A stretch of DNA of 60,615 nucleotides from a bacterium (GTDB lineage Bacteria; Patescibacteriota; Saccharimonadia; Saccharimonadales; Saccharimonadaceae). The notes under the pieces were generated by a model. That model was not told the origin of the DNA. It did no database searches and worked only from the letters and a program-made list of their open reading frames with translations. The DNA is taken from assembly GCA_030530485.1 (NCBI GenBank), contig JAUMUX010000002.1, positions 67,484 through 128,098 of the forward strand, read 5' to 3'. Positions 4,324 through 57,055 of the stretch are shown here, piece by piece; the stretch's first letter is position 1; every line of letters starts with the position of its first letter. Both the position numbers and the translations under genes were made by a program.

Positions 4324-5084
4324 AAATCATCTCGACGCAAAGCCTTTTGGATTTCATCAAACGAAAATCCTTGGCGCGCCAAGTAAGCAATCAATTTTTG
4401 CTCATCGCTATATTTTTTGGCTTTTTTAGCGATGATTTTTTGAATTTCTTCCGCATCGTTGCGCGAACTTTCGGCAAAAATCTTCTCTTGAATTTCGCTC
4501 GAAACGCCCTTTTTCGAAAGCTCAGCGCGCAATTTTCGAAGGCTCGAACCTTTGCGCTGATTGCGATTTTCCACCCAAAAACGCGCAAATTTTTCGTCGT
4601 CAATGTAATTCTTTTCTTTCAAGCGCGCCAAAGTTTGCGCCACCGATTCTTCAGAAACACCCCTTTTTTCGTAAAATTCACCCGTTTTTTTATTGCGTAG
4701 TTTTCGCGTTAAAGTTTTTCTCCATAAATAATCGCGAATTTCTTTTTCCGAATGCGGGCGCATCAAACAATAATTCAGCGCCAAAGCATAAAGTTTGCCA
4801 AATTCACTTTGCTGTTCAAGTTGCAAGATTTCATCTTCACTAAAAATTCGACCAATCTTAACCTCTAATTGCGTCAGTTGAAAAACATCCAAACTGAAAC
4901 GATATTTGCCATTAACGAAAATATTCACCCGATTTGGATTTTTGACCGCCTGTTTTATATCAGTTATCGTAAAAGTTCCCGCTTCGAAATGCGGTTTCCT
5001 TTTTCGAACCGTCTTAAAATTATTCGAAAGTTCATTCGAATTTTCCCGTTTTTCGAAATCGTTTTGTTCAAAAATTTCCAGCAT
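4320..5084 (-). CDS. recX: Regulatory protein RecX
   Basis: 254 residues. The first 40 or so are a poorly conserved charged extension. The body shows three-helix repeats with RecX hallmarks: ALNYCLMRPHSEKEIRDYL, a segment around EKNYIDDEKFARFWVENR, and SSLRKLRAELSKKGVS. RecX binds RecA filaments and limits their extension. It lies directly downstream of recA on the same strand, the usual order, with 54 bp between them. The C-terminal end overlaps the PRC-barrel gene by 4 bp. Confidence 0.9.
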   Translation of the reverse strand: MLEIFEQNDFEKRENSNELSNNFKTVRKRKPHFEAGTFTITDIKQAVKNPNRVNIFVNGKYRFSLDVFQLTQLEVKIGRIFSEDEILQLEQQSEFGKLYALALNYCLMRPHSEKEIRDYLWRKTLTRKLRNKKTGEFYEKRGVSEESVAQTLARLKEKNYIDDEKFARFWVENRNQRKGSSLRKLRAELSKKGVSSEIQEKIFAESSRNDAEEIQKIIAKKAKKYSDEQKLIAYLARQGFSFDEIQKALRRDDF

Positions 5085-6738: not shown

Positions 6739-8393
6739 TTCTTACCTCTTCGAAAAATTCTTGTTAAAAATATACCGATTTTTTGCCTAAATTCCCAAGC
6801 TAAAACTAGCAAAAATACCGCCGCTACGCCTAAAATCACCCACCAACCATTGAATTTATTAGCGATTTCTTCGGCTGATTTTTCTGCTTCAACCGCAAAA
6901 TCCGCCCCGTTATTTTTGGCTATTTTGCGGCAGCGATTGGTCTCGGGATTGCGCTCGTAGCCATCTTTGCAAGGCACTAATTCGGTTGTTTCCGCGGCAA
7001 TTTTGCGACAACGATTAGTTTCTGGATTACGATAATAACCCGCTTTGCACGGCGTTGGCGCGCTCGTTTGCGCGGCGATTTTATTACAACGGTTAGTTGC
7101 CGGATTACGGTAATAGCCAGCCTTACATTCCGCTATTTTCGATTCGGTTTTGGCTGAAATTTTATTACAACGATTCGTTTCAGGATTTAAATAATAGCCC
7201 GCTTCGCAGGTTTTCGCGGCGGCAGTTTTGGCAGTAGATTTTGTCGATTTTTTCTCACATTTTCCGTTCTGCGCACGAATTTCATTTTCGCCACACGGCG
7301 CAAATTCTTCAAAAACATTCAGTTGATTGGGGGTCGGCGAAAAAGTTTGCTTCCAGCCATTTTCGAAAAGCGCCCAAGAAGTGCCCGCGCCAGTTTTCGA
7401 AACAGCCACTTTTTCGATTTCATTATCTTGCGCGTCAAGCAAATAGATTTCGAAAGCGGTAGTTTTATTTACCTTCAAACCCGTCTCGGCGATTTTTATC
7501 GTGTGAAATTCGCCTGGATTTAAAGTTAAATTCGAAAAGATATGATTTTTCGAACCACTTTTATTGGTTTGAATTTTACAATTTTCGAAATTGCGAACTT
7601 CGTTCGAAAAATTCCGAATTTCAATAAATCGCTCATTTTCTGGCGCATTCACAAAAACCTCAGTTATCCGCAAAAATTCACAAAAATTTGGTGTTTCGGG
7701 CTTTGCGGGCGGAACGATTTCTGGTTTTTCGTCTTCATTTTTCTCGCTCGGATTGGCGGGAGCGGGCGGATTTTGCGGTTCCTCCACAGGCTCTTCTTGC
7801 GCCGAATCATCTTCTTGCGGATTTTTTTCATCTTCCTCTGGAGCTAAATTACGCCCAAAAAAATCCTGCGCATAACGCTCGTTCGATTCAGCCAAAACAA
7901 ACTGATATTTATTGTTTTTGGGTGCTAAATTATCTTTTAAATATTCATTTTTTGCTACAAAAATCTGGTTCGATTTCGTTTCGCTGGCGTTTTTTTCGAA
8001 GCCTTCTTTGGCACAATTCGCCGCGCTATCCGCACAAATAAAATCAATCAAATTCTCGCCATCAAACAGCCCAACCCGCGCCTTGCCATTGATTGCGTCT
8101 TTCGCAAAATAAAGATTGTTTGGCTTAGCTGGATTATTACGAATCACAAAGTAGCTGTTCGCTGGAATTATAATGTTTTCGGCACTCAAAAATTGTTTTG
8201 AAAGCGCGCCACTCGTCAAAATTAAATTTGAAAAGTAAAAATCTTGATTCGAAGCGTTAAAAATTTCGACAAATTCATCGCCGTTAGTTTGAGAAATTCG
8301 CGAAAGGTAAAGATTAGGCTCGGTTGCGCTCGCAAAATTAGAAATTATTAAACTTAAAGAAAAAGCTACCACCAATGCCCAAATCTTTCGCAT
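6735..8393 (-). CDS. Secreted or anchored lamin-tail-domain protein with four Cys-repeat modules
   Basis: 552 residues. A signal peptide (about 1-23) is followed by two lamin-tail-like beta domains: about 25-140 with DEFVEIFNAS, and about 240-350 with NERFIEIRNFS. A Pro/Glu-rich linker separates them. Residues about 385-490 hold four copies of C-x-GYY-RNPETNRC-K-I, each with two cysteines. One membrane helix (WWVILGVAAVFLLVLAW) and a basic tail end the protein, so it is probably displayed outside on a C-terminal anchor. Lamin-tail domains are often found in surface proteins and near nucleases. Overlap with ruvC is probably operon compaction rather than shared function. Function unknown. Confidence 0.8.
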   Translation of the reverse strand: MRKIWALVVAFSLSLIISNFASATEPNLYLSRISQTNGDEFVEIFNASNQDFYFSNLILTSGALSKQFLSAENIIIPANSYFVIRNNPAKPNNLYFAKDAINGKARVGLFDGENLIDFICADSAANCAKEGFEKNASETKSNQIFVAKNEYLKDNLAPKNNKYQFVLAESNERYAQDFFGRNLAPEEDEKNPQEDDSAQEEPVEEPQNPPAPANPSEKNEDEKPEIVPPAKPETPNFCEFLRITEVFVNAPENERFIEIRNFSNEVRNFENCKIQTNKSGSKNHIFSNLTLNPGEFHTIKIAETGLKVNKTTAFEIYLLDAQDNEIEKVAVSKTGAGTSWALFENGWKQTFSPTPNQLNVFEEFAPCGENEIRAQNGKCEKKSTKSTAKTAAAKTCEAGYYLNPETNRCNKISAKTESKIAECKAGYYRNPATNRCNKIAAQTSAPTPCKAGYYRNPETNRCRKIAAETTELVPCKDGYERNPETNRCRKIAKNNGADFAVEAEKSAEEIANKFNGWWVILGVAAVFLLVLAWEFRQKIGIFLTRIFRRGKK

Positions 8394-9551: not shown

Positions 9552-10099
9552 TATTTCAACCCCTTTTCGAAATCCGTTATTGCCGTTTTGTATTTTTCGG
9601 CAATTCCTTGCAAAACGCTTACATTATAGTTTAATTCGCGGCGCTGGTAGCGAACTTTCTCTAACTGATAATAAAATTCGCGGGCGTTTTCGCTTTTCGA
9701 ACAATCTGTCGATTTAAGTTTTTTCAATTCTTGCTCGTAAATTTTATAGTTTTCGCGGAAATATTGAATATTTTCCGAAAATTCAGCGGCAAATTTCACT
9801 AATTCTGAGCCGTTCAAAGAATTTAAAGCAATTCGCGCATTTAAATTCGCCATCAAATCGTTCGAAATTGTTTCATAACTTTGCCCCAAATTAACCCGCT
9901 TGAGCGCGTCGGTCGAATGGACTTTCGAAAGTTGATTTTGAATATTCGAACAGTTGTAAACCACATTCGAAAGCTGCTCGTCGCTGGGCGAATTAGGCGT
10001 AAAAACCGCATTTTCGGCTAAAACATTTTTCGAAAAGCTCAAAATTATCGCGCCCGCCAGTAATAAAATTCCAGTAATTTTCGAAAGATTATTCTTCAT
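9551..10099 (-). CDS. Predicted secreted helical protein, unknown
   Basis: 182 residues from the ATG inside the aspS stop region (11 bp overlap). A TTG five codons upstream is also in frame. The signal segment ITGILLLAGAIILSFSKNVLA has a probable cleavage after VLA. The mature part is mostly amphipathic helices with two cysteines (YNCSNI and TDCSKS) that could form a disulfide. No family recognised. TTCGAA motifs are dense in this gene. Confidence 0.65.
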   Translation of the reverse strand: MKNNLSKITGILLLAGAIILSFSKNVLAENAVFTPNSPSDEQLSNVVYNCSNIQNQLSKVHSTDALKRVNLGQSYETISNDLMANLNARIALNSLNGSELVKFAAEFSENIQYFRENYKIYEQELKKLKSTDCSKSENAREFYYQLEKVRYQRRELNYNVSVLQGIAEKYKTAITDFEKGLK

Positions 10100-15323: not shown

Positions 15324-16361
15324 ATGAAAATTTCGAAACTTCGAGTTCAGAATTTTCGCTCGCACAGTGATTTTTTGCTCGAAATTGGCGAAAAATCCAC
15401 TTTAATTTCGGGCGAAAATGGTAGCGGGAAAACCTCGCTTTTAGAGGCGATTTATTTTGCGCTTCAAGGCACCAGTTTTCGTTCGAGCGATAAAGAAATT
15501 CTCAAAAATGATGGTTCGAAATGGCTTCGAATTGATTTAAAATCGGCCGACGATTCGATTCGAACGGTGAAACTTGAAGAAAAACTAGATAGTAAAATTA
15601 AAAAAACTTTCGAAATTGACGGTAAAAAATCCGCGCGAATGCCCGTAGTTTCAAAAATACCGGTAATTCTTTTCGAACCAGATGATTTACAGCTTTTGAG
15701 TGGCTCGCCGAGCCGCCGCCGCGACTTTTTAGACCGTTTTTTGATGCAAACTTATCCGCATTTCCGAATTGCTCTTTCGCGCTATAATAAAGCCTTAAAA
15801 CAGCGCAACAACCTCTTGAAACGCGAGAATTTAAGCCCTCAGGAGCTTTTTCCGTGGGACGTGATGTTGGCGGAATATGGCGCCGAAATTATTTCGAAAC
15901 GGCTGGAATTTATTCGAAAAGTTAATTCTCAAATTTCGAAAGTTTATAGCCAGATTGCTGGCGTGAGCGACCAAATCGAAGTTGAATATTTAGGGAAAAA
16001 CATTTCGAAAGAAGCGATTTTACGCATGATGAACGCTAATTATCAGCGGGATAGGATTTTGGGTTACACCGATTTTGGCCCGCACAAGCACGATATTCAG
16101 TTTAATTTTAATGGCAAAGACGCGCGAAATGTGGCGAGTCGCGGCGAAAATCGTAGTTTGGTTTTAGCTTTGAAATTCATCGAAACTGACTTTTTGGCCG
16201 AAATGAGTAGTCGACCGCCGATTGTCTTGCTTGACGACGTTTTTTCGGAATTGGATGAAAGCCGCCAAAAAATGCTTACTTCGCATTTTTCGAAATACCA
16301 AACAATAATCACCTCAACTAATGAAATTGAGGTGAATGATTGTTGCCGCGTGAAGATTTAA
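15324..16361 (+). CDS. recF: Recombination mediator RecF
   Basis: 345 residues. Walker A SGENGSGKTS lies near the N-terminus after VQNFRSHSDF. SMC-like signature residues and a Walker B/D-loop VLLDDVFSELDESRQ lie near the C-terminus, and LSGSPSRRRDFLDRFL in the middle is typical of RecF. It helps load RecA at gaps. It overlaps the convergent small gene by 4 bp. Eleven TTCGAA sites fall in this one gene, in all three codon phases. Confidence 0.96.
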   Translation: MKISKLRVQNFRSHSDFLLEIGEKSTLISGENGSGKTSLLEAIYFALQGTSFRSSDKEILKNDGSKWLRIDLKSADDSIRTVKLEEKLDSKIKKTFEIDGKKSARMPVVSKIPVILFEPDDLQLLSGSPSRRRDFLDRFLMQTYPHFRIALSRYNKALKQRNNLLKRENLSPQELFPWDVMLAEYGAEIISKRLEFIRKVNSQISKVYSQIAGVSDQIEVEYLGKNISKEAILRMMNANYQRDRILGYTDFGPHKHDIQFNFNGKDARNVASRGENRSLVLALKFIETDFLAEMSSRPPIVLLDDVFSELDESRQKMLTSHFSKYQTIITSTNEIEVNDCCRVKI

Positions 16362-16949: not shown

Positions 16950-18644
16950 TTACGCTTTTATGCCCGTGGCAGCGAAGACATATTGCATAATCACCGCTGG
17001 GTCCCATTCGGTATCGTCTTGCTCTTGACCATCCGAATTTGGATTCTGAATCAACCATTTTCCGTTGCTGAGCGACTTATAAAGCACCACCGCGTGCGGT
17101 CCGCCACTATAAAATGGTTTAGGCCCAGCATTACCATAAAGCACTATCATTCCGCCGTTTTCAAGCCATTCGTTAAATTTAGCAATCGAAACTTCAAGGT
17201 CTTGATATTGGAAACCATATTCTTTAACGACGTGCGCAGCTTCTGTATTCGCACCAGAAGAAATAGTTAGGTAATTGTCTGACTTGATTTTTTCGCCCAC
17301 TTCATCTGGCGTAACAGGTTTACCCATCGCGGTCATAATCATTGCCAAAGAGGTTGGCACGCAGCCAGTGTTAGTGTAGGTTCCGCCGTTAAATTGCTTA
17401 TTTGCCCAGCTTCCTTCCCATTGAAGATAAACTGGGAAGCCTGAACTTGTGGTTCGGTTTACGTAGCTACTGGTACCGTATTTGCCATTCCAGCCGCTAC
17501 CTGTTTTACATTTCGATTTTGAGCTTGAAGTTAAGCTGTCTTTGAGAAAATTCAAATAAGCCACTTGACCTGCCGTGCTCATATGAACATAATTCATACC
17601 GTCGGAGTTAGTATAATACTGCTCTCGGCTACCGTTTGAATCGACGTAAGATTTCCAATCTAAAACTTTAACATTGTTATACGCGCTGGCGACCGAATTG
17701 ATGTTTGAATTAGTGGTATTGTAATTATCGCCAGAATAGCTGTTTACTAAGAAGACTTTTTTATCTTTGAGTAAATCTAACATCGTTTTAGCTTGCTCTG
17801 TTGGGAAGCTATCATTTGCGCCAATATTTATCACGACGTCATTTTTGATGTTCGAAGCGTTAGCTTGTAAATATTCGATAATCGAAGTATCGCCTTGTCC
17901 TTTCGAATCAATTCCACGGCTCACAAAAGCATTAACAGTCGAACCGCTAAAGGTTTTTTCCAACTCGCTTTTCACACCCACCGTCAAAGAATCGCCCAAG
18001 AAAGTGTAATTTGAAGAGGTGCTCGAAGCGGTTGATTTACCGCCATAAAGCTTCAAAAATCCTTCGGCGTAAGAAATATCTTCGGCGATACGCTTGGCGG
18101 CATAAATCGCATTTGGCCTTTCGAAAAGATTAATCCAAGCTTCGAGAGCTTCTTGCATAGTTTTCGCCGCTTTAATACCATTTAAGGCGTTAATTTCGCT
18201 CGAATTGAGCTCTTGCCACAAGAAATCTAGCTGCATTCCTAAATCGTCGTTGCTTTTGCCTTGCGATTTCGCGTATTCGAAAAGGCGAGCTTTGCGTTCG
18301 AAAGACCACTGCGCGATACCATAACCTTCGCCAGGATTTTCGTTCGAACCTTCCACCGCACCGGGGTCGAAACCAAAAGATTCACCATTCAAACCAGCCA
18401 TCACACCGGCAGTTACTTCATCAGAAAAGCCCTTACCTTTCAAATAATTCCAGACTTTTTCAGCATTATCACTACCAGCGAGCGAGCTTGAACCGTCAGA
18501 AATACATCCCTCATCACCCGCATCATAATAATTAATTCGGTTGAGGTTGAAAAATACCTCATCAAAACCTTCAGCCATACTTAAATTCGCCCCAATCGAG
18601 GAAAAAATAATAGATAGTAAGATGATTGCTTTAGCTTTTTTCAT
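16950..18644 (-). CDS. Secreted three-domain cell-wall protein: lysozyme-like, SGNH hydrolase and C39-like peptidase
   Basis: 564 residues with a signal peptide (1-24). Residues about 60-200 match phage tail lysozyme-like domains (AEKVWNYLKGKG, VMAGLNGES with E88, GYGIAQWS). Residues about 212-372 are an SGNH/GDSL hydrolase (GDS 217-219, GAND 275-278, D349 and H354), likely removing acyl groups from glycan or peptidoglycan. Residues about 400-564 resemble a C39-type cysteine peptidase (C428 in NTGCVPTSLAM, H517 in GGPHAVVLY, N534 in IQNPNS). Coupled by TAATG to the M23 protein. It fills the VirB1-like wall-opening role of the locus, or attacks a neighbour wall. Confidence 0.82.
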   Translation of the reverse strand: MKKAKAIILLSIIFSSIGANLSMAEGFDEVFFNLNRINYYDAGDEGCISDGSSSLAGSDNAEKVWNYLKGKGFSDEVTAGVMAGLNGESFGFDPGAVEGSNENPGEGYGIAQWSFERKARLFEYAKSQGKSNDDLGMQLDFLWQELNSSEINALNGIKAAKTMQEALEAWINLFERPNAIYAAKRIAEDISYAEGFLKLYGGKSTASSTSSNYTFLGDSLTVGVKSELEKTFSGSTVNAFVSRGIDSKGQGDTSIIEYLQANASNIKNDVVINIGANDSFPTEQAKTMLDLLKDKKVFLVNSYSGDNYNTTNSNINSVASAYNNVKVLDWKSYVDSNGSREQYYTNSDGMNYVHMSTAGQVAYLNFLKDSLTSSSKSKCKTGSGWNGKYGTSSYVNRTTSSGFPVYLQWEGSWANKQFNGGTYTNTGCVPTSLAMIMTAMGKPVTPDEVGEKIKSDNYLTISSGANTEAAHVVKEYGFQYQDLEVSIAKFNEWLENGGMIVLYGNAGPKPFYSGGPHAVVLYKSLSNGKWLIQNPNSDGQEQDDTEWDPAVIMQYVFAATGIKA

Positions 18645-21600
18645 TATTTCAATCCTAAGTTATTTAGCAATAATGGGTCGAAATGGTTGCCGATAGTTCC
18701 CTGGTGAGTTTCCATATGGAGGTGGGCGTTGGATTCTGGGCCAGAAGTATTGAATCCGCCACCACAGCCTTGCCCTTCACAGCCAACGGTTCCTATTTGG
18801 GTTTTCGCGGTTACTTTATCGCCAACTTTTACATTCGATGATTTCATATGGCAATAATATGAATAAACGGTTTGACCTTGGTATTTTTCTTCATGTTCAA
18901 TCGTTACGGTGTAATTTCCGCAATAGCCATAAGGGTCGGCCTCGGCTTTTTTAACTGTTCCATTACCAATAGAATATACTGGAGTATTTGGGTAGGCGTT
19001 CATTAAAATACCAAAATCCAAACCAGTGTGGAAGCCGAAAGATTGGCGCATGTCAGCATAAAGCTGATTGCTTGCGAAATTTTTTGAAGTAGCGCCGTCG
19101 ATTGGTGAATGCCAATCTCCGCTTGAAACTTCGCGAGTTGTGCCAGAAGAACGATTATTTGAACTGCTTCCCGAAACTGGCTTAAAGTCGGTTTCCATAC
19201 CTTCTTGCACACGAATGTCGGTCATATACGCCGCAAAATACGCCGCCGCCTGACCATAAGAGCCTGCGGTTGAGCAATTTCCTCCCATTTCTTCAGGGTC
19301 ATCACCAATACCGATTGGCGATTCGCGCTCCATACATTTTTTGACATAATCTTTGAATTGATTAGATTTAATTGCCGAAGTCGGATTTTCTTCTTCTGGG
19401 TCGATATGACCATTATCAACCAGCCATTGAATCACATCTTCAGGGTTTTTATCGAGCGTGGTGTTTGAGATTCCAGTATAAGGATTACAGAAAGCGTCGG
19501 TCGCGATGCCGAGACTTTTAATATCGCTATCTTGGCAAAGATTCATATTGGCTTTGAAATTAGCCGAATCGGCAGCACTTGCGCCAGGTAGAACACTCGA
19601 AATCGATTTCGAAACAATCGAAGACATTGCAGGTAAGAAACCGCTAATCGAAGATAATTGAGTGGTATATGGCAAAGCTGAACTGACGATTGAGCCTAAG
19701 AAAGTGTGGCGAGTAGTTGCGTCGAATGGGCTGCGTGTTGCACGCTCGAACGCGCCATTTTCGGCGATACGCACTTCATTACGCTGATAAAAGGCTACGG
19801 CTTCATCGGTGGTTAAGGTGCCTCCCCCGCCCGAGACGGTATTTTTGCTCATCAAAGAACCTGCGCCCGACATCACCGCATTTCCATAGTCTTCACCTTT
19901 CGTGAAGCTGGAAACTACTTCACCTGCCAGCAGTTCGGGTAATGGTGAAAGCGCCCGACCAATAACTTCGCCAATTACGATGTCGCCAATCAAATCGAAA
20001 GCAAATCCAGTGAGAGTAGCGGCACTCACTACCATCAGTAGCTTATCGACAGCATCAGAGGTGAGGACTTTGCAGAATTTGGTAATCGCTGATAATGATG
20101 AACTGCCAATTACCGAAGAAATCGCCCCACGTAAACCAGTCCAAAATTGCGCAAATACCCCAACCGCACCAGTTGAATATTGTGCTGCGGAATCATTTAA
20201 TTTGCCGATATTATCGTTATAAGCCATCGCGCGCCAACCTTGAGAATCGGTGAAAGATTTAACTTTCGAGGTTTGAGATGTCGTTTCGGCAAAATAAGCC
20301 AGCGCACTTTGTAATTTAGATTGATTTTCATTCGAATTATCATTTGAGCTGCCGCTCCACTCTGAAGAAATACCTGTTAATTTATTACCAATCATCGCCG
20401 CTTCTTCTGGGGTTGCTTGCCCCGCCTTGATTTTATCGGCAAAAGATAAGAAAGTTAAAGCAAACTGCGCCAGTTTAACCGCGCGAATTGCTTTAACGCC
20501 GATGTTAATCATATTACCAACGCCCCAAAGGGTGCATGGAATTTGCAAAATGTTAGCTTTTTTAACGGCGTTATCGATGGCGCTGGCTTTGGCGCTTGGA
20601 CCGCCCTTCACCGCATCGCTGGCGCCACTTCGAACATCTCTAATAAACTCGTCAGTTGTGTCGAGATCGGCGTTATTTTTAGTTTTCGATTGCTTCGTGT
20701 TGGCGTCGTCCGCGTCGGCAACTTCTTCACGCGAGTTGGTTTCGAGGTCGGCGTCGCTACCGGTTTTGTTGGTTTTTTCGTTTACTTCAGTTTCAATTTC
20801 GGCCTCGGTTTTACCGCGATTATCTGGCGGCGCTTTCCCTAAGCCAATTTTGCCCATAAATTTGGCAGCCATATCGTCGAGAAAGCTCGCGAAAGTTCCC
20901 TTATAAGCCTTATCCATCGAAGTTCGAAATTCGACATCGGTTTTGAGTGCATTTTTTAAGTTCGATTCGGTGATTGCCTCGCCGATTTTATTGCCATTGG
21001 CGTCAATTTTGGTTAAACTCTTGATTTTTTTACCGCCACCATCCAGCTCCACGTCGAAACCAGCTTTTTTTAATTTCGAAAGCTGCTTTTCAGAAATATT
21101 GGTGAATTTACAAGCCGTTTTAATTAAATTACACTTCGTGCCAGAAGAAGCACGCAGTTTCGTCGCCATTATTCCACTGCCGCGAATATCCAAAATTGAG
21201 GCAGTTGAATTGAGTTTCTCGGTAATCATCTCAGTAATATGAAATGGCGCCATTCCCACAATAAAGGTGCTAAAAAAACCAACACCTAAAACCGAGCCGC
21301 CACCAAAAAGCGCCGCCGCAATTTTGGCGCGCCGCGAGAAAAACTTTGACTTTCCGCCAAGTTTGGCATTACGCGATTTGTGAGTGCCGCCGTCATTTTT
21401 CTGGCCGCTAACTTGGTTTTCCCAAGGCGATTTTTCGTTCGAAGTTATATCTTCATCTTGAGCACGTTGGCTGGTAGCAGAAGAATTTTCAGTATCCGCT
21501 AAAGCAGACGGATTGTAGCCGTCGTTCCCGCGAATAACCTCAGCGCTTCCCCATCTGCTTTTGGCTTTTTCCAACGCAGATTGGTTTAAATCACTCAAGT

Positions 21601-24359: not shown

Positions 24360-25526
24360 TTACCTCAATGAAATTACTACTTCTTCTTCGTTATTTAAAT
24401 CAACATTATCTTGGCGCTGACGAATTTTATTAGCTTGGCGGGCAATCGTTTCCACCGAAAGGTCTTTACCTTCGCTCACCAGCCGCATAATTTCGGGCGA
24501 AATATTTTCACTGTGCGCCGCTGGAGCGGGCGGATTTGATGCAGGTTTTTGGCTGTTCGGCAAGATAACGGTTTGGCGAATCGAATCAGGATATGGGTTG
24601 AATTCGAGGCGGACGTTTTCGAATTCGCTACTGTTATTTTCGAATTTTTCTTCAGGGTTTCGAAAATGTGAAATTGTGTGCGGCGGAGTTGGCGTAGCTT
24701 GATTAGCTGGCGGTTGGCTGATATTTTGCACTTGATTTTGTGGAGTATTTGGGTTTTGCGGAGCGGCTGGCTGAGCTGGATTTGTGCTTTGAGCTTCGCG
24801 AGAATTGTTCCAACTAAGGAAATTACTTTGGTTGATTTGCGAGCGTTGCTGCGCGTCGCTATAGAGGTCGATTGGCTTCGGTGCGGCAAAAGTTTGTGAT
24901 TGAATTTGCTCGGCGTTCGAATTAGTGTAATCAGCTAAATTGCGCGCGGTATTGATATTGCGCATAATTTCTTGTTTTCGAAATTCCTTGTGGCTGCTGA
25001 GCATCGAATCAATTCGGTCGGCACCGCGATTTTCGAAAATATCATCCACCTGGTTACTTTCCGAAACAATATCTTCGTGCAGATTGGTATCTTGCGCAAC
25101 CGCATTGCGAATCGCCCAACCCTCAGTATCAACAATATCCGCCAAATAGCTCAAACGGCGTGAAGCTTCATCACGCGAAATATCTTTGGTGAGAATATTT
25201 TCTTCGCGCACTGGCGCCGAAATTTCAATCAAATGTTCAATTCCATCAGCCTGCCAAATTCGCTTGGGCGGCTTAATATAAAAACTCAAAACAGCCGCCA
25301 GATAAAGTTCCATCGGCTGGTCTTTTTTAATCGGTAGTGCCAAAACCACCAAGAAAATAATAAACGGCGCGGGAATGATAATCAGCGCAGGGAAAATTTG
25401 CCAGAAAAAGAAACCAACTAAACCAAGTCCAGCTGCAATCATCAAATATATGAATTGCCGAAAATTAAACGGCCCAAGCAATTTGTCATCTGCCTCAACG
25501 TCTTGAGGAACTTTATAAACGCTCAC
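24360..25526 (-). CDS. PrgI/VirB3-like inner-membrane protein with long cytoplasmic tail
   Basis: 388 residues from a GTG at 25524-25526. The open frame continues upstream to a TTG inside the preceding terminator, so I chose the GTG, which gives the expected PrgI-type start VSVYKVPQDVEADDKLLGPFN and has an AGGAG site 13 bp before. Two membrane helices at about 25-70 match PrgI/VirB3 proteins. The tail from about 120 contains a possible helical region and a long Gln/Asn/Pro-rich disordered segment. It opens the leftward operon PrgI-TraC-VirB4-M23-lysozyme-unknown. Confidence 0.8.
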   Translation of the reverse strand: MSVYKVPQDVEADDKLLGPFNFRQFIYLMIAAGLGLVGFFFWQIFPALIIIPAPFIIFLVVLALPIKKDQPMELYLAAVLSFYIKPPKRIWQADGIEHLIEISAPVREENILTKDISRDEASRRLSYLADIVDTEGWAIRNAVAQDTNLHEDIVSESNQVDDIFENRGADRIDSMLSSHKEFRKQEIMRNINTARNLADYTNSNAEQIQSQTFAAPKPIDLYSDAQQRSQINQSNFLSWNNSREAQSTNPAQPAAPQNPNTPQNQVQNISQPPANQATPTPPHTISHFRNPEEKFENNSSEFENVRLEFNPYPDSIRQTVILPNSQKPASNPPAPAAHSENISPEIMRLVSEGKDLSVETIARQANKIRQRQDNVDLNNEEEVVISLR

Positions 25527-28279: not shown

Positions 28280-28310
28280 CTGTTTATTAGTATAAAAAAC
28301 TGAAAAATGC

Positions 28311-28339
28311 TTGCGTTTTTGCCGAAAATGATGTATTGT
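28311..28339 (+). promoter_or_regulatory. Candidate promoter of the pilin operon
   Basis: TTGCGT, 17 bp, TATTGT, 9 bp before the ATG at 28349. Confidence 0.4.
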
Positions 28340-28348
28340 ATAGTTAAT

Positions 28349-28699
28349 ATGACAAAAATACAAAAAACAGCAATATATTTTTCATCGGTGGTTATCTTGA
28401 CGTTGCTCAGTTTTCATAACTTAGCATTTGCGGAAGCTGCGTCAGAAAATACAGCAATTCTGAAAGGAATGGATATTAATTCTATTCTTAATTTGATTTT
28501 ATTAACACTAAACGCTGGTGCAGTAGTTTTGGCAACTGGCTCAATTGCAGTAGCTGGTTTTCTCTATTTAACTGCGGCAAATAACGCCAGCCAAGTTCAG
28601 CGCGCTAAAACAATGATTTTCAATACTGTTATTGGTATTATTGCTTATGTCTTTATGTGGACAATTCTTGAATGGCTAATTCCAGGAGGAGTTTTCTAA
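28349..28699 (+). CDS. VirB2/TrbC-type pilin-like protein 1 (divergent member)
   Basis: 116 residues from MTKIQKT; an in-frame ATG lies 14 codons upstream but overlaps the promoter. Signal peptide ends near AFAEA. Two membrane helices (ILNLILLTLNAGAVVLATGSIAVAGFLYL and the C-terminal VIGIIAYVFMWTILEWLI) are separated by a short polar AANNASQVQRAKT turn, the TrbC/VirB2 layout. The C-terminus differs from its neighbours (EWLIPGGVF versus NFVI). It overlaps the next gene as TAATG. Confidence 0.75.
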   Translation: MTKIQKTAIYFSSVVILTLLSFHNLAFAEAASENTAILKGMDINSILNLILLTLNAGAVVLATGSIAVAGFLYLTAANNASQVQRAKTMIFNTVIGIIAYVFMWTILEWLIPGGVF

Positions 28700-29136
28700 T
28701 GAAAAAAATAATTTTGGCAACCTTAGCGATGGTTTTAGTGGGAAGTTTCTCATTGGCGGTTCTCCAAACTCAAAATGCGATGGCAGCTTGTGAGCAAAAT
28801 GGGTCAAGTCTTTTAGGTTTGCCAGCTTGGTATCGGGGTTTGGTGAATGATTCGGATTGTAGCATCAAGAAAATCTCGCAAGACGGAAAAGATGGCGGCG
28901 TTTCAATCCAGCAATTCGTTTGGACGGTTGTTGGAAATATTTTCGATGCGATTTTTCGAGTAATTGGCGTTGTAGCGGTAGGGTACATTATTTGGGCTGG
29001 TTTTCAGTATATGCTTTCGGCGGGTAATTCAAGTAAGATGTCAGCGGCTAAAACCACTCTAACCAACGCAATTATTGGTTTGATAGTAGCACTGGTTGCT
29101 TCGGCAGTTGTTCAATTAGTGATGGGAGTATTCTAA
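28699..29136 (+). CDS. VirB2/TrbC-type pilin-like protein 2
   Basis: 145 residues from the ATG in TAATG, behind an AGGAGGAG site. The signal peptide ends near AMAAC. An extended mature N-terminus with two cysteines (AACEQN, DSDCSIK) could form a disulfide. The two-helix core contains FQYMLSAGNSSKMSAAKTTLTNAIIGLIVALVASAVVQLVM. It is one of six tandem paralogues. Confidence 0.8.
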   Translation: MKKIILATLAMVLVGSFSLAVLQTQNAMAACEQNGSSLLGLPAWYRGLVNDSDCSIKKISQDGKDGGVSIQQFVWTVVGNIFDAIFRVIGVVAVGYIIWAGFQYMLSAGNSSKMSAAKTTLTNAIIGLIVALVASAVVQLVMGVF

Positions 29137-29771: not shown

Positions 29772-29782
29772 GAAAGGTGAAT

Positions 29783-30166: not shown

Positions 30167-30170
30167 AATA

Positions 30171-30198
30171 TTGACTTCAAAAGTATTTGTGATATAAT
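30171..30198 (+). promoter_or_regulatory. Promoter of pilin 6
   Basis: TTGACT, 16 bp, TATAAT with extended TGn. It starts just after the stop of pilin 5, so pilin 6 can be made separately. Confidence 0.75.
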
Positions 30199-31276: not shown

Positions 31277-31945
31277 ATGATTTTTATGAAGAAAAAATTA
31301 ATCATAAACCTTTTAGATTTATTTGCGCCCAATTCTTGCTATTTTTGCGGAAAATTGGGTGACTTAATTTGCGAAAATTGTTTCGAAAAGCAGGATTTCG
31401 AAATTCGAATGGTTTCGAAAAATGGTAAAAATCAGCCAGACCGCGAATTTTACATCAGCGAGCGCTCGGGGATTTTAAAAAGAATGGTGGATGATTTGAA
31501 ATTCAAAAATAAAAAGGAAAACGCGCTTTTTCTGGCGCAGATTTTGGCGCAAGCTTTGGCGAAAAATCCAATTTTTTTACAGGCGCAAAAAGAAATAATT
31601 TTACTGCCCGTTCCTACTTCGTCGCGCCATATTCGCCAGCGCGGATTCGACCACACCGAGCTGATTTCGAAAAATTTAGCAAAAATTCTGGAAATTCGAA
31701 AACAAAAAACGATTATTCGAAAAGCTGATTTCGTTCAGCGTGGCGCTTCGAAAACGGTGCGTTTCGAACAAGCTGCCCAGAGTTATGATTTAGCGGCGAA
31801 AATCGAAAAACAGGCGATTTATTGTGTGCTGGACGACATTCGTACTACTGGCGCGACCTTAAATTCAATTTCACAAACTCTTAAACGAAACGGTGCGCGT
31901 GAAGTCTGGGCGATTTATTTAATGCAGCAAAAACAGCAAAAATAA
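31277..31945 (+). CDS. ComF family phosphoribosyltransferase-like protein
   Basis: 222 residues from an ATG with AGAGG 5 bp before; another ATG three codons in is possible. A Zn-ribbon-like start (CYFC and CENC) is followed by a PRT fold: LLPVPTSSRHIRQRGFDHTELI and YCVLDDIRTTGATLNS (PRPP loop). ComF proteins support DNA uptake; other competence genes are not in this window. The last bases lead into tRNA-Ser(TGA). Confidence 0.88.
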   Translation: MIFMKKKLIINLLDLFAPNSCYFCGKLGDLICENCFEKQDFEIRMVSKNGKNQPDREFYISERSGILKRMVDDLKFKNKKENALFLAQILAQALAKNPIFLQAQKEIILLPVPTSSRHIRQRGFDHTELISKNLAKILEIRKQKTIIRKADFVQRGASKTVRFEQAAQSYDLAAKIEKQAIYCVLDDIRTTGATLNSISQTLKRNGAREVWAIYLMQQKQQK

Positions 31946-43935: not shown

Positions 43936-45006
43936 TTAATACCAATTGCGCTGGAAGATTTTGCGGTTGATTTTGAGTAGGAGTTTTTCGCCAAAGTTTC
44001 GCCAAAGTTGGTATTTTTTTGGCGAAATCACTAAATCGAAAGCGCCCACGTAATCGGTGATTTCTTTCGAAAAGCTGGTTTTGAATTGCCCTACGCCGTG
44101 CAAAAAATGATTTTTATCGTGAATTTGGTCGCTTGGTGGCGTGCCGCAAAGGTCGTGGATTTTGGCGCCATTTTCGCGCGCCCAGCGGATGACTTCCCAC
44201 TGCAACAGATGTGAAGCGCCATAAGCTTTTCGCGCGCGCACCGAAGCGCCGTCTTTGTAGGTGGATTTTTCGCCAAAGACAAAAGCAAATGCCGCCGCGA
44301 CGACTTCACCTTCAAATTTCGCAAAAAATAGTTGCCCGATTTGTGCTTTCGAAAAGCTCTGCCAAAATTCGAAATGATATTCGAACGAGCGAATGTTGAA
44401 GCCAGAATCGCGCGCTGTTTCCGCGAGCAAATCATAAAAAATCTGGGCATTCGCGCGAGTCAAATCAACGCGTTCCACCTCAACACCGTCGCGTTTAGCA
44501 CGATTGATTGAATATTTGGCGCCTTTGCGCGGCATTTTCGCCAGAATTTCTTCTTCGCTTAAACTTGGTGAAATATCGAGCAGAATGGTTGAAAAATTCG
44601 GCTGAATTGGCCGCACAATTTCGAAGTTTTCACTTTTAAGAAAACTAAGATTTTCGGCATTTTTCAAAAGTTCGCTTTCCATTTTGATGGCAAAAACGCC
44701 ATTTTTGCGCCCAAAATTGCGCAAGATTTCTTTAATTTTTTGCAATTCCGCGCGGTTGGAAATGCCCGCGCCTTTACTCAAATACCACAATTTCCCCAAT
44801 CCTAAAACCAGCTTTTCTTGAGCTGAAATCGCTAAAACTCGCTCGCTATCGAAATTTTCAATTAAAAAATAGCGTGGCTGCCAGCCTGATTTTCGCTTAA
44901 ATTCGGTCATTTCAAAAGATTGAAAAACATTGCCGCCGTCGGGGTTTTTCAAGATTAAATTATCCCAATTTCGAATTTCTTCATCGTTCGCAAATCGTAT
45001 TTCCAT
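43936..45006 (-). CDS. FemAB-like peptidoglycan bridge aminoacyltransferase 1
   Basis: 356 residues. FemABX family pattern: VFQSFEMTEFKRKSGWQPRYF near the start, two GNAT-like halves, and LLQWEVIRWARENGAKIHDLCG near the end. Such enzymes add amino acids from aminoacyl-tRNA to the stem peptide of lipid II. A second copy is at 55973-57055. The serine tRNAs in the window could be donors, but that is speculation. Promoter is leaderless. Confidence 0.87.
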   Translation of the reverse strand: MEIRFANDEEIRNWDNLILKNPDGGNVFQSFEMTEFKRKSGWQPRYFLIENFDSERVLAISAQEKLVLGLGKLWYLSKGAGISNRAELQKIKEILRNFGRKNGVFAIKMESELLKNAENLSFLKSENFEIVRPIQPNFSTILLDISPSLSEEEILAKMPRKGAKYSINRAKRDGVEVERVDLTRANAQIFYDLLAETARDSGFNIRSFEYHFEFWQSFSKAQIGQLFFAKFEGEVVAAAFAFVFGEKSTYKDGASVRARKAYGASHLLQWEVIRWARENGAKIHDLCGTPPSDQIHDKNHFLHGVGQFKTSFSKEITDYVGAFDLVISPKKYQLWRNFGEKLLLKINRKIFQRNWY

Positions 45007-45070: not shown

Positions 45071-45751
45071 ATGAATTTTAGGCAAGAGGAAAATCGAAAT
45101 CCGCAGCTTTCTGAGCCAGATTTTAATGTTCCGCAAAATACTTTTTATGCGCCCGAAAACCAAACTGCACCAAATCAAACCGCTCAGGTGGAAGAAGTCC
45201 AGCCTTTTCAAGCGCCAGAATATCGCAAAAATCTAAGTGAAGATTCGAACCAAAATCCGGAATTCGAAAGTGCCGAGCGCCAATTCGAAGAGCGCGAAAT
45301 CGCCAATTGGCAAGCGCAAGAAATGTTTATTGGCGAAAAAAGCAAGCGCTGGTTTTTGGCGTTTTATATTGTGGTGGCGATTTTGGTGGCTTTGGCTATC
45401 TGGATGCAACTTTGGACTTTTGCCGCTTTGATTATCGTTTCGGCGGTGGCAATTATGGTAACGCGGCGCGAAAATCAAGCCAATATGGTTGCTTATGCTC
45501 TGAGCACGCGCGGAGTTTATATCGGTAATAATTTTTATCCATATAGCGATTTTCGCACTTTTGGGATTGTCCGCGAAGCTCAAGTTTATTCGATTGTGTT
45601 GATTCCAAAAAAACGCTTCTCGCCTGCCACTTCGATTTATTTTCCAGCGAGCGAAGGCGAAAAAATCACCGATATTATCGGTCAGCGCCTACCGATGGAA
45701 GAAGTTAAACTGGATATTATCGACCGAATTATTCGCAAAATTAAACTTTAG
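45071..45751 (+). CDS. Two-helix membrane protein with PH-like tail, unknown
   Basis: 226 residues from the ATG placed 6 bp after the -10; a longer frame upstream is ruled out by promoter position. A disordered Gln/Asn-rich start (1-70) precedes two close membrane helices (about 93-135, WFLAFYIVVAILVALAIWMQLWTFAALIIVSAVAIMV). A C-terminal beta-rich domain (about 140-226) follows, like bacterial PH domains of small membrane proteins. Confidence 0.72.
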   Translation: MNFRQEENRNPQLSEPDFNVPQNTFYAPENQTAPNQTAQVEEVQPFQAPEYRKNLSEDSNQNPEFESAERQFEEREIANWQAQEMFIGEKSKRWFLAFYIVVAILVALAIWMQLWTFAALIIVSAVAIMVTRRENQANMVAYALSTRGVYIGNNFYPYSDFRTFGIVREAQVYSIVLIPKKRFSPATSIYFPASEGEKITDIIGQRLPMEEVKLDIIDRIIRKIKL

Positions 45752-46120: not shown

Positions 46121-48706
46121 TTATATCAATTCCCAATTTCGGCCAATTTTAACGTCAACTTTGAGCGGAATGACTAATTCTGGGCAAATATTTTCCATCG
46201 TTTCACGCAAAATCTTGGCAACTTCCTCGGCTTTTTCTTCGGGCGTTTCGATTAAAATTGAGTCGTGAATTTGCAAAATCTGCTCGCCAAGCCCAGCCTG
46301 CGTGATTTTTTCGTCGACAATCAACATCGCACGCTTCATCAAATCCGCCTCTGTTCCCTGAATCGGCATATTAGCGGCGGCACGCTTGGCAGCTTCACGC
46401 ACCATAAAATTCGCCGATTTAACATCTGGCGTCGGCCGCCTGCGACCATAGAGAGTTTCCACAAAGCCTTCATTTTCGGCCTGCGAAATCGTTTTCGAAA
46501 TGAAATTCTGGATTGGTTTTCGAATTTCGAAATAATTTTCGATAAAATTCTGCGCTTCGAAAAAGCTCGTGCCGAGCTCGCTTGCCAAACGGTGCGCGCT
46601 CATCCCATAAAGCACGCCAAAATTGATAACTTTTGCCGCGCGGCGCTGGCTGGGCGAAATTTCTTCAAGCGGAAGATTAAACATCGAAGCGGCGGTTTTT
46701 AGGTGAATATCGGCGCCAGATTTAAAATCTTCAATCAGATTTTGGTCGCCACTCAGAACCGCAGCCAGGCGCAACTCGAACTGCGAATAATCCGCCGCCA
46801 CCAAAATATGCCCTTTTCGTGCCACAAAACCTTCGCGAATTTTGCGCCCAAGCTCCGAACGAATCGGGATATTTTGCAGATTTGGGTTGGTTGAAGAAAG
46901 CCGGCCAGTGGTCGTAACGTCTTGGTTGAAAGTGGAATGAATCCGATTTTGCGCGTCCGCCAGCTTCGGCAGTGCGTCGATGTAAGTATTTTTGAGTTTC
47001 GAAAACTCGCGGAATTCTTCGATTTTGGCAATAATCGGGTGCAACTCGCGCAATTTATCCAGCTCTTTTTGCCCCGTCGAAAAACCATTTTTCGATTTTT
47101 TAATCCCTTTAGTGGGCAAATTCAAATCTTCGAAAAGAATTTTCGAAAGCTGCAACGGGCTCGCCACGTTAAATTCGCGCCCCGCCAACTCGAAAATTTC
47201 AGCTTCCAGCTGGGCGATTTTTTCACCAAAAATTTGGCTTTGTTCGGCGAAAAACTCAGGCTTGATTTGCACGCCCGCCCGCTCCATTTTGAACAAAACC
47301 TTGCTCAACGGAAAATCGAGTTTCTCTGCCACCGCGCGGATTTTGGGCAAATTTCGCAGTTCTTTTTGCTGTTTTTCGAAAACCAAAATCATCGCTTTGA
47401 GGCGTTCGAGCGGCTTTTCTTCATCGATGGCGGTTGCGGAAATCCCACGCAAAGTTTTGTCGCGAATCAGCGCGTTGAGCAAAAATGCCATCTGGCGCAG
47501 GTCGTAAATTTCGCCAAAAATCGGCGCGATTTGATTTTGCGCCATCGCGTGAAAAGTGCTTTTCGAATCGTAAAAAATGGTTTTCGAATTTCGCCAAAAA
47601 TCGGCGTAATCGCTAAATTCGCTCGCCGCGAGTTCGGCGGATTTTTCGCCATCAGAAATCGTGAAAATTGAATTTTCGAAATCGACGAAAATTGGTTTTT
47701 CGAATTTTTCAAGGTTTTTCGAATTAAGAATTTCTGGCGCAGTAGCTTTTGTTAGTTCTGGTAATTCGGCATTATTTTCGGCAAAATCACCACTAAAAAG
47801 GCTGGCTTGATTTTGGTTTTGGGCTTTTGCTGCATTGCGCATTTCAGCAGGGATTTTTCGCACCAGCGAATTAAATTCGAGCTTTTTCATCGCCGCCAAA
47901 ACCGCCGAATAATCAAAATTATGAATATCAGCCGCCGCTAAATCAAGCGTCACGGGCGCATCCGTCCAGATTTCCGCCAGTTTTTTGCTCATAAACGCCG
48001 ATTCTCGCCCTTCCTCGAGCTTTTTGCGCCAAGCAGGCTTAATCTTCTCGAGATTCTCATAAATGCCCTCAAGCGTGAAAAATTCTTGAAGTAGCGCGGT
48101 GGCAGTTTTTGGGCCAATGCCAGGCACGCCGGGGATATTGTCGCTCGAATCGCCTTGTAGCGCCTTTAAATCAAGAAATTGCGCCTGTTTCAAGCCGTAT
48201 TTTTCTTCGAAATAAGCCAAATCGAACTCTTCGATATTCGAAAATCCACGTTTCATCGCAAAAACTTTGGTATCTTGGTCGATGAGCTGGAGCATATCGA
48301 GGTCGCTGGTGATGAGATAACTTTCGATACCCTGTGCGTTGGCTTGCTCGCTGAGCGTGCCGAGGATGTCGTCGGCTTCGTAACCATCGCATTCAAAAAG
48401 TGGCCAGCCGAGCGCCTGCAAAAAATCGTGCAAAATTGGAATTTGGGCTTGAAAATCCTCTGGCGGCGTTTTGCGCCCCGCTTTGTAGCCGTCGAAAATC
48501 TCTAAGCGCCGCGAAATTGAAGTTCCCTTTTTATCCCAAGCCACCACCACATAATCGGGGTTTAATTTGCGGATTATTTCAAACGCCAAGCTCGCAAAGC
48601 CAAAAACTCCGCCCGTCGGAGTGCCGTCGGCGGTGGTCAAACCCGCCATCGCATAATAGCCTCGGTAAAAAACACTTTTTCCATCTATGATTACTATCTT
48701 CTTCAT
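46121..48706 (-). CDS. polA: DNA polymerase I
   Basis: 861 residues from the ATG 7 bp after TATAAT; eight codons upstream to a TTG overlap the promoter. Residues 1-280 are the 5' nuclease domain with intact aspartates (TSDLDMLQL, GDSSDNIPGVPGIG). The 3'-5' exonuclease-like region (about 330-440) keeps VDFEN and a few aspartates but is weakly conserved. Polymerase motifs: A AADYSQFELRL, B RRAAKVINFGVLYG, and C QIHDSILIE. Motif C has HDS where HDE is usual. Confidence 0.95.
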   Translation of the reverse strand: MKKIVIIDGKSVFYRGYYAMAGLTTADGTPTGGVFGFASLAFEIIRKLNPDYVVVAWDKKGTSISRRLEIFDGYKAGRKTPPEDFQAQIPILHDFLQALGWPLFECDGYEADDILGTLSEQANAQGIESYLITSDLDMLQLIDQDTKVFAMKRGFSNIEEFDLAYFEEKYGLKQAQFLDLKALQGDSSDNIPGVPGIGPKTATALLQEFFTLEGIYENLEKIKPAWRKKLEEGRESAFMSKKLAEIWTDAPVTLDLAAADIHNFDYSAVLAAMKKLEFNSLVRKIPAEMRNAAKAQNQNQASLFSGDFAENNAELPELTKATAPEILNSKNLEKFEKPIFVDFENSIFTISDGEKSAELAASEFSDYADFWRNSKTIFYDSKSTFHAMAQNQIAPIFGEIYDLRQMAFLLNALIRDKTLRGISATAIDEEKPLERLKAMILVFEKQQKELRNLPKIRAVAEKLDFPLSKVLFKMERAGVQIKPEFFAEQSQIFGEKIAQLEAEIFELAGREFNVASPLQLSKILFEDLNLPTKGIKKSKNGFSTGQKELDKLRELHPIIAKIEEFREFSKLKNTYIDALPKLADAQNRIHSTFNQDVTTTGRLSSTNPNLQNIPIRSELGRKIREGFVARKGHILVAADYSQFELRLAAVLSGDQNLIEDFKSGADIHLKTAASMFNLPLEEISPSQRRAAKVINFGVLYGMSAHRLASELGTSFFEAQNFIENYFEIRKPIQNFISKTISQAENEGFVETLYGRRRPTPDVKSANFMVREAAKRAAANMPIQGTEADLMKRAMLIVDEKITQAGLGEQILQIHDSILIETPEEKAEEVAKILRETMENICPELVIPLKVDVKIGRNWELI

Positions 48707-49378: not shown

Positions 49379-49439
49379 CTTTTTCGAAAAGTTGAATTAG
49401 CCCGCGAAGGCTGTTTTCGAAAAATATCGCCATTTTCGA

Positions 49440-49464
49440 AAATAAAAAAGCCCAATTTGGGCTT
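49440..49464 (-). terminator. Terminator of the winged-helix-like gene
   Basis: AAGCCCAA/TTGGGCTT stem followed by six T residues on the minus strand. Confidence 0.8.
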
Positions 49465-53097: not shown

Positions 53098-53775
53098 CTA
53101 ATCTTCGATGCCTAAATCACGCAATTTAACAGATTGAGCAATGTCGAATTCGGCAATTCGTGTGCGGCGCAATTGAGCGCAATACGCTCCGCAGCCGAGG
53201 ATTTTGCCAAAATCTTCCGCCAGTGTGCGAATATAAGTGCCACTCGAAACGTGCGCGCGAATTTGAACGCGCGGAAAATCGTAAGCGAGAATTTCGAAAC
53301 TAAAAATTTCAACTTTTCGTGGGGAAATTTCGACATTTTTGCCCTTTCGCGCAAGATGATAAGCGCGCTGCCCGTCAATTTTAATCGCCGAAAAAGCAGG
53401 CGGAATTTGTTCGATTTTGCCCGTGAGTTTTTTCGAAGTCGCCAAAAGTTCTTCGAAAGCGGGCTCTTTTTCGAAATCGATTTTCGAAATTTCGCCTTCT
53501 GGGTCGCCAGTGCTCGAAATTTGCCCCAAGATAAATTCGGCTTCATAAACTTTGTCTAATTTGGTGAGCTCCATCGCGTTTTTGGTTTCTTTGCCGTAAA
53601 GCAAAACTAAAAGCCCCGTGGCAAAAGGGTCGAGCGTGCCAGTGTGGCCGACTTTGATTTTTTTGCCGAATTGCTCACGCAGAACTCTTCGCACTCGAGC
53701 GACCACGCCAAAGCTGGTGATTCCAGCGGGCTTATCGATGAGGATTCGCCCGCTTTCGTTTTCGAATTTTAGCAT
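53098..53775 (-). CDS. truB: tRNA pseudouridine-55 synthase TruB
   Basis: 225 residues. KPAGITSFGVVARVR start, catalytic KVGHTGTLDPFATGLLVL and HVSSGTYIRTLAEDFG are intact. It lacks a long C-terminal PUA extension, so it is a short form. It lies 2 bp after the DHH-like gene, probably in one transcript. Confidence 0.95.
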   Translation of the reverse strand: MLKFENESGRILIDKPAGITSFGVVARVRRVLREQFGKKIKVGHTGTLDPFATGLLVLLYGKETKNAMELTKLDKVYEAEFILGQISSTGDPEGEISKIDFEKEPAFEELLATSKKLTGKIEQIPPAFSAIKIDGQRAYHLARKGKNVEISPRKVEIFSFEILAYDFPRVQIRAHVSSGTYIRTLAEDFGKILGCGAYCAQLRRTRIAEFDIAQSVKLRDLGIED

Positions 53776-55972: not shown

Positions 55973-57055
55973 TTATCTTTTAAAAAGGCGAAAAATCTTT
56001 TTGCCAGCAGGCAGCATTGAATTCCAGATTGGGTAGAAAATCGAAGTTGGAAAATCGAAAGTTCCCACCAGTTGATTGCGATGATTCGAAAATCCAGCTT
56101 TGAATTTCGAAATGCCGTCGTTTAGCAAACCGTTGAAATCGTAGCGTTCGATGCCGCGATTTTTCATTTCGATAATCGTGAGCCACTTCAAGATATAATT
56201 TGCGCGGACTTTTTGCCCTAAATCGCTCACGCCGCCATAAAGTTCGAAAGCGGTTTTGTCGCTGGCAGCCAGCCAAAGAAAAGCCACCATTTCTTCGGTG
56301 ATATTTTCGACTTCTTCGCCCTCTTTGTTTTTCGAAATTGTTCTGTGGCGCACGAAAGCGGCAAAAATCGGCGAATTTTTACGCATTTGGCGTTTTAAAT
56401 CTTGATAATATTGGGCTTTGTGAATCGCAAATCCAGCTCGCTTGGCGGTTTGTTGATAGATTGAAAGCGCCTGATTGATTTCTTGCTCAGTGTAAATTTC
56501 GCGCACTCTGACCTCTGTTGAACTCTTGCGAATATACTGGCGTGTTTTTTTGCTCATTTCAGCGAGCAAAGTATTTTCATCTTTGGTTAAATCCAAAATC
56601 AACGTTTCGGGGATTAAAATGGTATTTTTTGCCCTTCTCCAGCCGTTTGTTGGCTCAAAACTGCCCTCTTCCCAATCGGGTTCCATTGAAATGCAAACTG
56701 GTCGCGGTTTGAGGTTATTTTTTGCCCAAAGTGCAATTTCGCGCGTCAGTTTTGCCCTTTCGATGGGCTTTTTCGAAAGCACCAATGAACCACGCGGAAT
56801 ATAAGCGAAATTTCGAAGCGGAAAAGGTAATTTTCGAACCAAAATTTGCGCCGCCGCCACAATATCGGAGTGGTCTTTTTTCTTTTCGTCGATAGTTTTT
56901 TCTTCACTATTTTTCAAAAAGACTCGCCTCACCTGCCAACTTGGCGATTGCGCCTTTAACTCGCCCCAGCCCCAAAGTTGCAGCGGATGCCCGCCGCGCT
57001 CGTTAATAAAATCATTCCATTCATCTTTATCAGTTATTTCGATAATCTTTAGCAT
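55973..57055 (-). CDS. FemAB-like peptidoglycan bridge aminoacyltransferase 2
   Basis: 360 residues from MLKIIEI, 6 bp after TATAAT; a longer frame upstream lies in the promoter. Family marks: HPLQLWGWGELKAQSPSWQVRRVF, ELYGGVSDLGQKVRANYILKW and YDFNGLLNDGISKFKAGF. It is a distant paralogue of the protein at 43936-45006; having both suggests a two-residue bridge or different acceptor steps. Confidence 0.87.
   Translation of the reverse strand: MLKIIEITDKDEWNDFINERGGHPLQLWGWGELKAQSPSWQVRRVFLKNSEEKTIDEKKKDHSDIVAAAQILVRKLPFPLRNFAYIPRGSLVLSKKPIERAKLTREIALWAKNNLKPRPVCISMEPDWEEGSFEPTNGWRRAKNTILIPETLILDLTKDENTLLAEMSKKTRQYIRKSSTEVRVREIYTEQEINQALSIYQQTAKRAGFAIHKAQYYQDLKRQMRKNSPIFAAFVRHRTISKNKEGEEVENITEEMVAFLWLAASDKTAFELYGGVSDLGQKVRANYILKWLTIIEMKNRGIERYDFNGLLNDGISKFKAGFSNHRNQLVGTFDFPTSIFYPIWNSMLPAGKKIFRLFKR

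Follow-up and report, generated by a model that had tools for sequence, protein, structure and literature searches.

Copies of the palindrome TTCGAA occupy one face of the DNA helix, recurring about every 10.35 bp, in the bacterial assembly (G000; 656,503 bases, 10 contigs, 93% complete) that contains the window, i.e., the whole stretch of DNA analysed (60,615 bp, positions 1 to 60615). An earlier note had described the palindrome as strongly over-represented. The feature is real and stronger than first noted, being both phased and restricted to one clade, and the helical phase, which that note overlooked, is its main feature. We put the probability that TTCGAA is the contact site of a nucleoid or other architectural DNA-binding partner at roughly 0.5.

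Helical phasing of TTCGAA

Over 636 kb, the distances between pairs of TTCGAA sites peak at 20–21, 30–32, 42, 51–54 and 62–63 bp. There are 66 pairs at 20 bp and 101 at 21 bp versus 14 at 26 bp and 10 at 27 bp, and the alternation continues with 50 at 30, 57 at 31, 7 at 37, 48 at 42, 5 at 47 and 42 at 51 bp; about 10 pairs are expected at each distance. The best period is 10.345 bp (SD 0.03, 95% interval 10.28–10.41, block bootstrap). As a measure of phasing we used R2/N, the squared resultant divided by the number of pairs, which is about 1 for unphased sites. For pair distances of 15–210 bp over the 636 kb it is 149 at 10.35 bp, a value that translates into no strict probability because pairs share sites. 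Phasing was present in 32 of 32 stretches examined, and the window is phased by itself (R2/N 27.5, r 0.42 at 10.345 bp). Only nine sites lie within repeated 46-bp contexts.

The phase is kept by pairs that span different reading frames, at distances not divisible by three (R2/N 50.6, r 0.24), and by pairs with both sites intergenic (R2/N 41.7, r 0.38), and therefore neither codon structure nor α-helices in the encoded proteins are the cause. Codon shuffles yielded a mean R2/N of 5.0 and a maximum of 10.8, compared with 110.8 observed. Other six-base palindromes tested at 10–90 bp were unphased, with R2/N at about 3 or less, and the comparison word CGCC reached 7.3, whereas TTCGA and TCGAAA, words inside the motif, are strongly phased. 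Dinucleotide amplitudes in G000 are small, and the hexamer dominates the signal.

The excess of TTCGAA pairs is concentrated at short range (1,266 vs 429 at 10–50 bp and 575 vs 419 at 51–90 bp), with none beyond 90 bp in the 636 kb; weaker phase coherence continues to about 200 bp. Sites are clustered and uneven (gap CV 1.42), gaps longer than 800 bp are in excess, and clusters of at least three sites are several times commoner than under a Poisson model. They are rarest at gene starts and otherwise occur everywhere. The first-turn peak is split: distances of 7–8 and 12–14 bp are favoured (strong peaks at 7 and 13), whereas spacings of 9–10 bp show depletion or at least no enrichment, with 3 pairs at 10 bp. 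Hairpin avoidance was considered for this notch and rejected, as 6-bp inverted repeats in general lack it. In-phase arrays in the window are given in Table 1.

Variants with one mismatch phase with TTCGAA in proportion to their similarity to it (r 0.33 for TTCGAA, 0.15–0.17 for NTCGAA, 0.13 for TGCGAA and 0.09 for TTTGAA/TTCAAA), as expected under graded recognition or decaying sites. Masking all TTCGAA-like words left a wave of low amplitude in which A/T steps keep the phase and GC, AC/GT and AG/CT steps run opposite to it, much like a signature of bending or wrapping. The word AGCT likewise lies in antiphase to TTCGAA.

Table 1 Features located in the window (plain positions) and in other stretches of DNA (L numbers)
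Feature	Location	Strand	Details
recF	15324..16361	+	11 TTCGAA; codon phases 0:2, 1:3, 2:6
FemAB-like gene	43936..45006	-	6 TTCGAA
In-phase array	4983..5028		gaps 20, 20
In-phase array	7531..7608		gaps 53, 19
In-phase array	9924..9971		gaps 21, 21
In-phase array, dnaA	12579..12655		gaps 20, 51
In-phase array, recF	15526..15614		sites 15526, 15559, 15609; gaps 33, 50
In-phase array, recF	15893..15940		sites 15893, 15913, 15935; gaps 20, 22
In-phase array	24618..24664		gaps 21, 20
In-phase array	31666..31752		sites 31666, 31695, 31716, 31747
In-phase array	45244..45289		gaps 19, 21
In-phase array	46494..46561		gaps 32, 30
In-phase array	49383..49440		gaps 33, 19
In-phase array	53432..53488		gaps 20, 31
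In-phase array	56772..56838		gaps 40, 21
GATC-rich, TTCGAA-poor island	L027:5000-16500
GATC-rich, TTCGAA-poor island	L048:1-8000
GATC-rich, TTCGAA-poor island	L050:9500-13500
GATC-rich, TTCGAA-poor island	L051:17500-20000
GATC-rich, TTCGAA-poor island	L052:1-3200
GATC-rich, TTCGAA-poor island	L057:3000-7600
GATC-rich, TTCGAA-poor island	L058:14500-18000
EcoRI-type adenine methyltransferase	L056:14850-17002		paired with GmrSD/HNH-like gene (partner by similarity only)
EcoRI-type adenine methyltransferase	L058:16196-18708		paired with GmrSD/HNH-like gene
LexA-domain-only protein	L024:2359-2706	-	115 residues
HU-like gene (G004)	L041:1471-1860
HU-like gene (G004)	L042:1468-1986
Repeated translated unit	L054:9767-9997		SFRVVLNKRVLK
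Apparent duplicated block	L024:8470-9974 and 17793-19297		two genes (198, 291 aa)
Small secreted/membrane proteins	28307-30637		includes type IV secretion pilin (PF18895)

Excess beyond composition and codon choice

The window holds 243 TTCGAA palindromes (4.0/kb) and the whole assembly 2,667 (4.06/kb), against 489 for the reversed-word control AAGCTT, and over-representation is thus genome-wide. Exact counting reproduced the numbers given earlier for recF (11) and the FemAB-like gene (6), as well as the spread of the recF sites over all three codon phases. The accompanying estimate that chance would give about one site per 3 kb holds for single-base composition, which predicts about 19 sites in the window, but not for dinucleotide content, since dinucleotide shuffles give 66 ± 8. 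An order-2 model predicts 114 and a 4th-order Markov model 219. The latter takes up the excess, since the words TTCGA, TCGAA and TTTCGA are enriched as well, and a count near this Markov expectation is therefore not decisive against an excess of TTCGAA.

Synonymous-codon shuffling, which keeps the proteins and the codon usage, is the cleaner test. Genes in the window contain 215 sites versus 66 after shuffling, with ratios of 2.3, 4.0 and 4.2 by codon phase. Over 636 kb, genes contain 2,191 sites versus 680, a 3.3-fold excess (764/394/1,033 observed and 298/112/270 shuffled by codon phase). Intergenic DNA holds 312 sites versus 51 by an order-1 model. The excess does not depend on codon choice, as the earlier note had argued, nor is it confined to one codon phase, the outcome named there as counting against it. 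The longer form TTTCGAAA, also said to be frequent, occurs 101 times in the window versus 12.5 by the order-1 model. Among all 64 six-base palindromes TTCGAA ranks first for enrichment (3.28-fold), followed by AAGCTT (1.98).

The proteins bear a visible cost of the accumulation of TTCGAA. In G000 the dipeptides FE and SK, both of which TTCGAA encodes, stand at 1.57 (EF, 1.00) and 1.39 (KS, 0.94), and both enrichments are smaller in relatives. In codon blocks at TTCGAA sites the amino acid differs from that of the orthologue in the relative G003 in 65% of cases, compared with 51% in control blocks of the same genes.

Relatives and foreign-looking DNA

Among 121 family genomes the only standouts are G000 at 4.06/kb, its congener G004 at about 1.4/kb (1.45) and G003 at 0.9/kb; the others have about 0.5/kb or less. 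The motif is thus some 10-fold denser in G000 than in most family members, and only a single small clade has it in excess. In G000 two sites separated by two helical turns (TTCGAA-N13–16-TTCGAA) occur 276 times, where site density predicts ~43; G004 has 35 where ~6 are predicted, six times expectation. In 378 other genomes of the phylum sample, whose genomes are roughly 0.4–2 Mb, the count is at most 7 each; it is 2 in G003, 1 in G001 and 1 in G002. G004 is phased like G000, with a period of 10.30 bp and r of 0.35; phasing is absent in G003 and in the samples of G001 and G002. Of the genomes searched, only G000 and G004 are phased.

G000 has the gene content of a very small bacterium and is probably a saccharibacterial genome within the Patescibacteria. 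At the protein level its median identity is 75% with G003, 70% with G004 and 67% with G001. Because the closest relative by protein, G003, is unphased but G004 is phased, the history is not simple, and phasing was either lost in G003 or arose twice. A scan for triple arrays in GTDB r220 contigs and IMG/VR revealed no second genome-wide case among the matches listed; the high-density matches examined were local tandem repeats or unphased.

The G000 core nearly lacks GATC (0.19/kb), which is at a normal 2.25/kb in foreign-looking islands (Table 1), where TTCGAA falls to 1.85/kb versus 4.19/kb in the core, a contrast somewhat inflated because the islands were picked partly by these counts. One of them carries phage structural genes (tail tube). 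These GATC-rich, TTCGAA-poor islands suggest recent acquisitions. TTCGAA can serve as a marker of native versus recently acquired DNA in this lineage. Genes in the window contain 4 GATC versus ~191 after synonymous shuffling. CCGG, GTAC, CATG, GGCC and CTAG are also strongly avoided in the window and the G000 core, and this avoidance is much weaker in relatives. Other local features (Table 1) are a repeated translated unit that looks like a CRISPR-type repeat array, an apparent duplicated block in the assembly, and a row of small secreted or membrane proteins.

Search for a reader of the motif

Profiles for HU (PF00216) and archaeal-type histones (PF00808) found no match in G000, an assembly that is 93% complete and in which divergent histones could escape them. 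YbaB/EbfC is encoded in G000 but was rejected as a lineage-specific binder, being conserved also in unphased relatives. A 115-residue protein consists of a LexA DNA-binding domain and a C-terminal tail, without the peptidase domain; its gene is conserved in the genus and lies directly downstream of another conserved reading frame. This protein was a lead because Gram-positive LexA operators contain CGAAC, and was set aside because its recognition segment does not vary across four congeners, unphased ones among them. Operators of a LexA regulon would lie close to the promoters of a few genes, whereas TTCGAA is everywhere and rarest at gene starts.

Among genes common to G000 and G004 and missing from G003 (nearly complete sequences) there was no clear DNA-binding candidate, the set being mostly housekeeping genes and assembly gaps. 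No lineage-specific TTCGAA binder emerged from the DNA-binding proteins of G000 that were checked. Within the genus only G004 carries two HU-like genes, one of which adjoins ribosomal L3/L4 genes.

Interpretation

Of the causes proposed in the earlier note, the best fit is a site for a nucleoid or other DNA-binding protein, given the helical phasing. An abundant partner, most likely a nucleoid (architectural) protein, would prefer TTCGAA as its contact point; it may bend, wrap or coat the DNA, and would touch one helix face every one or more turns over ~90 bp. Under such a partner, by selection or drive, the chromosome would have acquired in-register sites by the thousand, genic as well as intergenic. 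We infer that the reader is a protein, that it is architectural, and that the sites are kept up by selection rather than drive. The data suggest that a putative reader of one side of the chromosome has reshaped both DNA and proteins. The most far-reaching version, somewhat less likely than not, would be a single-face chromatin code written in the sequence, in which a palindrome in register genome-wide, with an undescribed nucleoid protein as putative reader, is strong enough to alter protein sequences. Against the architectural reading, the searches above yielded no binder and neither HU nor an archaeal-type histone in G000, and phasing does not follow protein similarity in G003 and G004. The depletion at 9–10 bp between the peaks at 7 and 13 is odd for histone-like wrapping, and a host-dependent bacterium with a small population would have difficulty in maintaining so many sites under weak selection, which number in the thousands.

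DNA uptake, also proposed earlier, is the main rival, possible but rather unlikely. A competence receptor (e.g., a minor pilin) would prefer TTCGAA, uptake and recombination would spread the motif, and the phase would arise if the receptor surface contacted one DNA face at several points. Natural transformation has been shown in Saccharibacteria (PMC10633639), and the one named contig in the close comparison that resembles G000 is from Candidatus Saccharibacteria (L100), with some shared proteins at 53–74% identity; several pilin-like genes are among the open reading frames, and TTCGAA is clade-limited, leaves a footprint in the proteome and is scarce in foreign-looking islands, as expected of an uptake motif. 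This reading is weakened because the sites are clustered instead of even, with the excess of gaps longer than 800 bp noted above, yet one good site per fragment would suffice. A 6-bp palindrome at 4/kb is also short and dense compared with that of Haemophilus, which recurs about every 1,000 bp (PMC7811141), and phase coherence over 90–200 bp exceeds the footprint of a single receptor. It is quite improbable that TTCGAA is just the most visible word of ordinary 10–11 bp periodicity, arising from mechanics, supercoiling or amphipathic helices with no dedicated partner. Dinucleotide periodicity of unknown function is indeed widespread (PMC7537859), and a weak A/T versus GC wave survives masking, but the signal is specific to one hexamer: neither the other six-base palindromes nor a small set of comparison words in G000 have the same phase amplitude. 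Nor does this account fit the unphased relatives G003, G001 and G002, or the phase in frame-mismatched and non-genic pairs, which does not come from α-helix coding.

It is very unlikely that TTCGAA, like HIP1, owes its iteration to a DNA methyltransferase by way of mismatch repair or biased mutation. TTCGAA is palindromic, highly iterated and lineage-specific, as HIP sequences are (PMC4390886), and G000 encodes two EcoRI-type methyltransferases. However, no helical phase would be expected from methylation or from mutation bias, HIP1 itself has no two-turn preference in 79 cyanobacterial genomes, and the core-genome EcoRI-type enzyme, 82% identical in unphased G003, was set aside as not lineage-specific. 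No matching lineage-specific methyltransferase was found, and the earlier suggestion of methylation-linked mutation bias is not supported. Base composition, codon usage or chance has a negligible probability: the 4th-order Markov model does predict 219 of the 243 sites in the window, but codon shuffles, the intergenic excess, the phasing and the relatives refute this account.

TTCGAA in G000 shows that pressure on the DNA itself can be enough to shift dipeptide usage proteome-wide. A small genus whose close relatives lack TTCGAA phasing makes selection for helical periodicity in genomes directly testable.

Comparison with known systems

No description of TTCGAA in such a role was found in the literature searched, most subscription journals lying outside the search. 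Among iterated palindromes HIP1 (GCGATCGC) comes closest. The HIPs follow methyltransferases and have a density of 1–2 per kb (PMC4390886). TTCGAA shares with them thousands of genic and intergenic copies, lineage specificity, an excess beyond codon use and the many-fold genome-wide excess of a palindrome that defines the class. It differs in its AT-rich sequence, its density of ~4 per kb and its helical phase, and no lineage-specific methyltransferase could be tied to it. In 79 cyanobacterial genomes, 742 HIP1 pairs lie 19–22 bp apart versus 906 at 24–27 bp (ratio 0.8), and cyanobacterial HIP1 therefore has no two-turn helical preference; the corresponding numbers for TTCGAA in G000 are 268 and 77 (ratio 3.5).

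DNA uptake sequences (DUS in Neisseria, USS in Haemophilus) are likewise self-motifs with thousands of copies, clade-specific dialects and low counts in foreign DNA. TTCGAA is also clade-specific and rarer in foreign DNA, a comparison biased by islands picked partly for low TTCGAA. The known uptake sequences are longer and less dense, with USS spaced ~1,000 bp apart, about one per kb (PMC7811141), whereas TTCGAA is 6 bp, palindromic and in register over ~90 bp, and in place of even spacing at ~1/kb it has 4.06/kb, a CV of 1.42 and more clusters than Poisson.

Wrapping by histones or HU offers a likeness in the phased A/T-rich steps, the antiphase of GC and a reach of tens of bp (PMC12701072); Leptospira HLp, a tetramer, wraps about 60 bp with binding reported as nonspecific (PMC12701072). 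The differences are that no archaeal-type histone or HU was detected in the G000 assembly and that 10-bp spacing is depleted. Prokaryotic 10–11 bp periodicity, which is widespread, unexplained and phylogenetically variable (PMC7537859), similarly follows the helical repeat throughout coding and non-coding DNA. Known cases are carried by dinucleotides (AA/TT), whereas here a hexamer carries the signal, with a several-fold in-phase excess and in only two related genomes. Chromosome-wide, helically phased dinucleotide rules are known, and in G000 a rule of this kind is borne at high amplitude by a single exact word.
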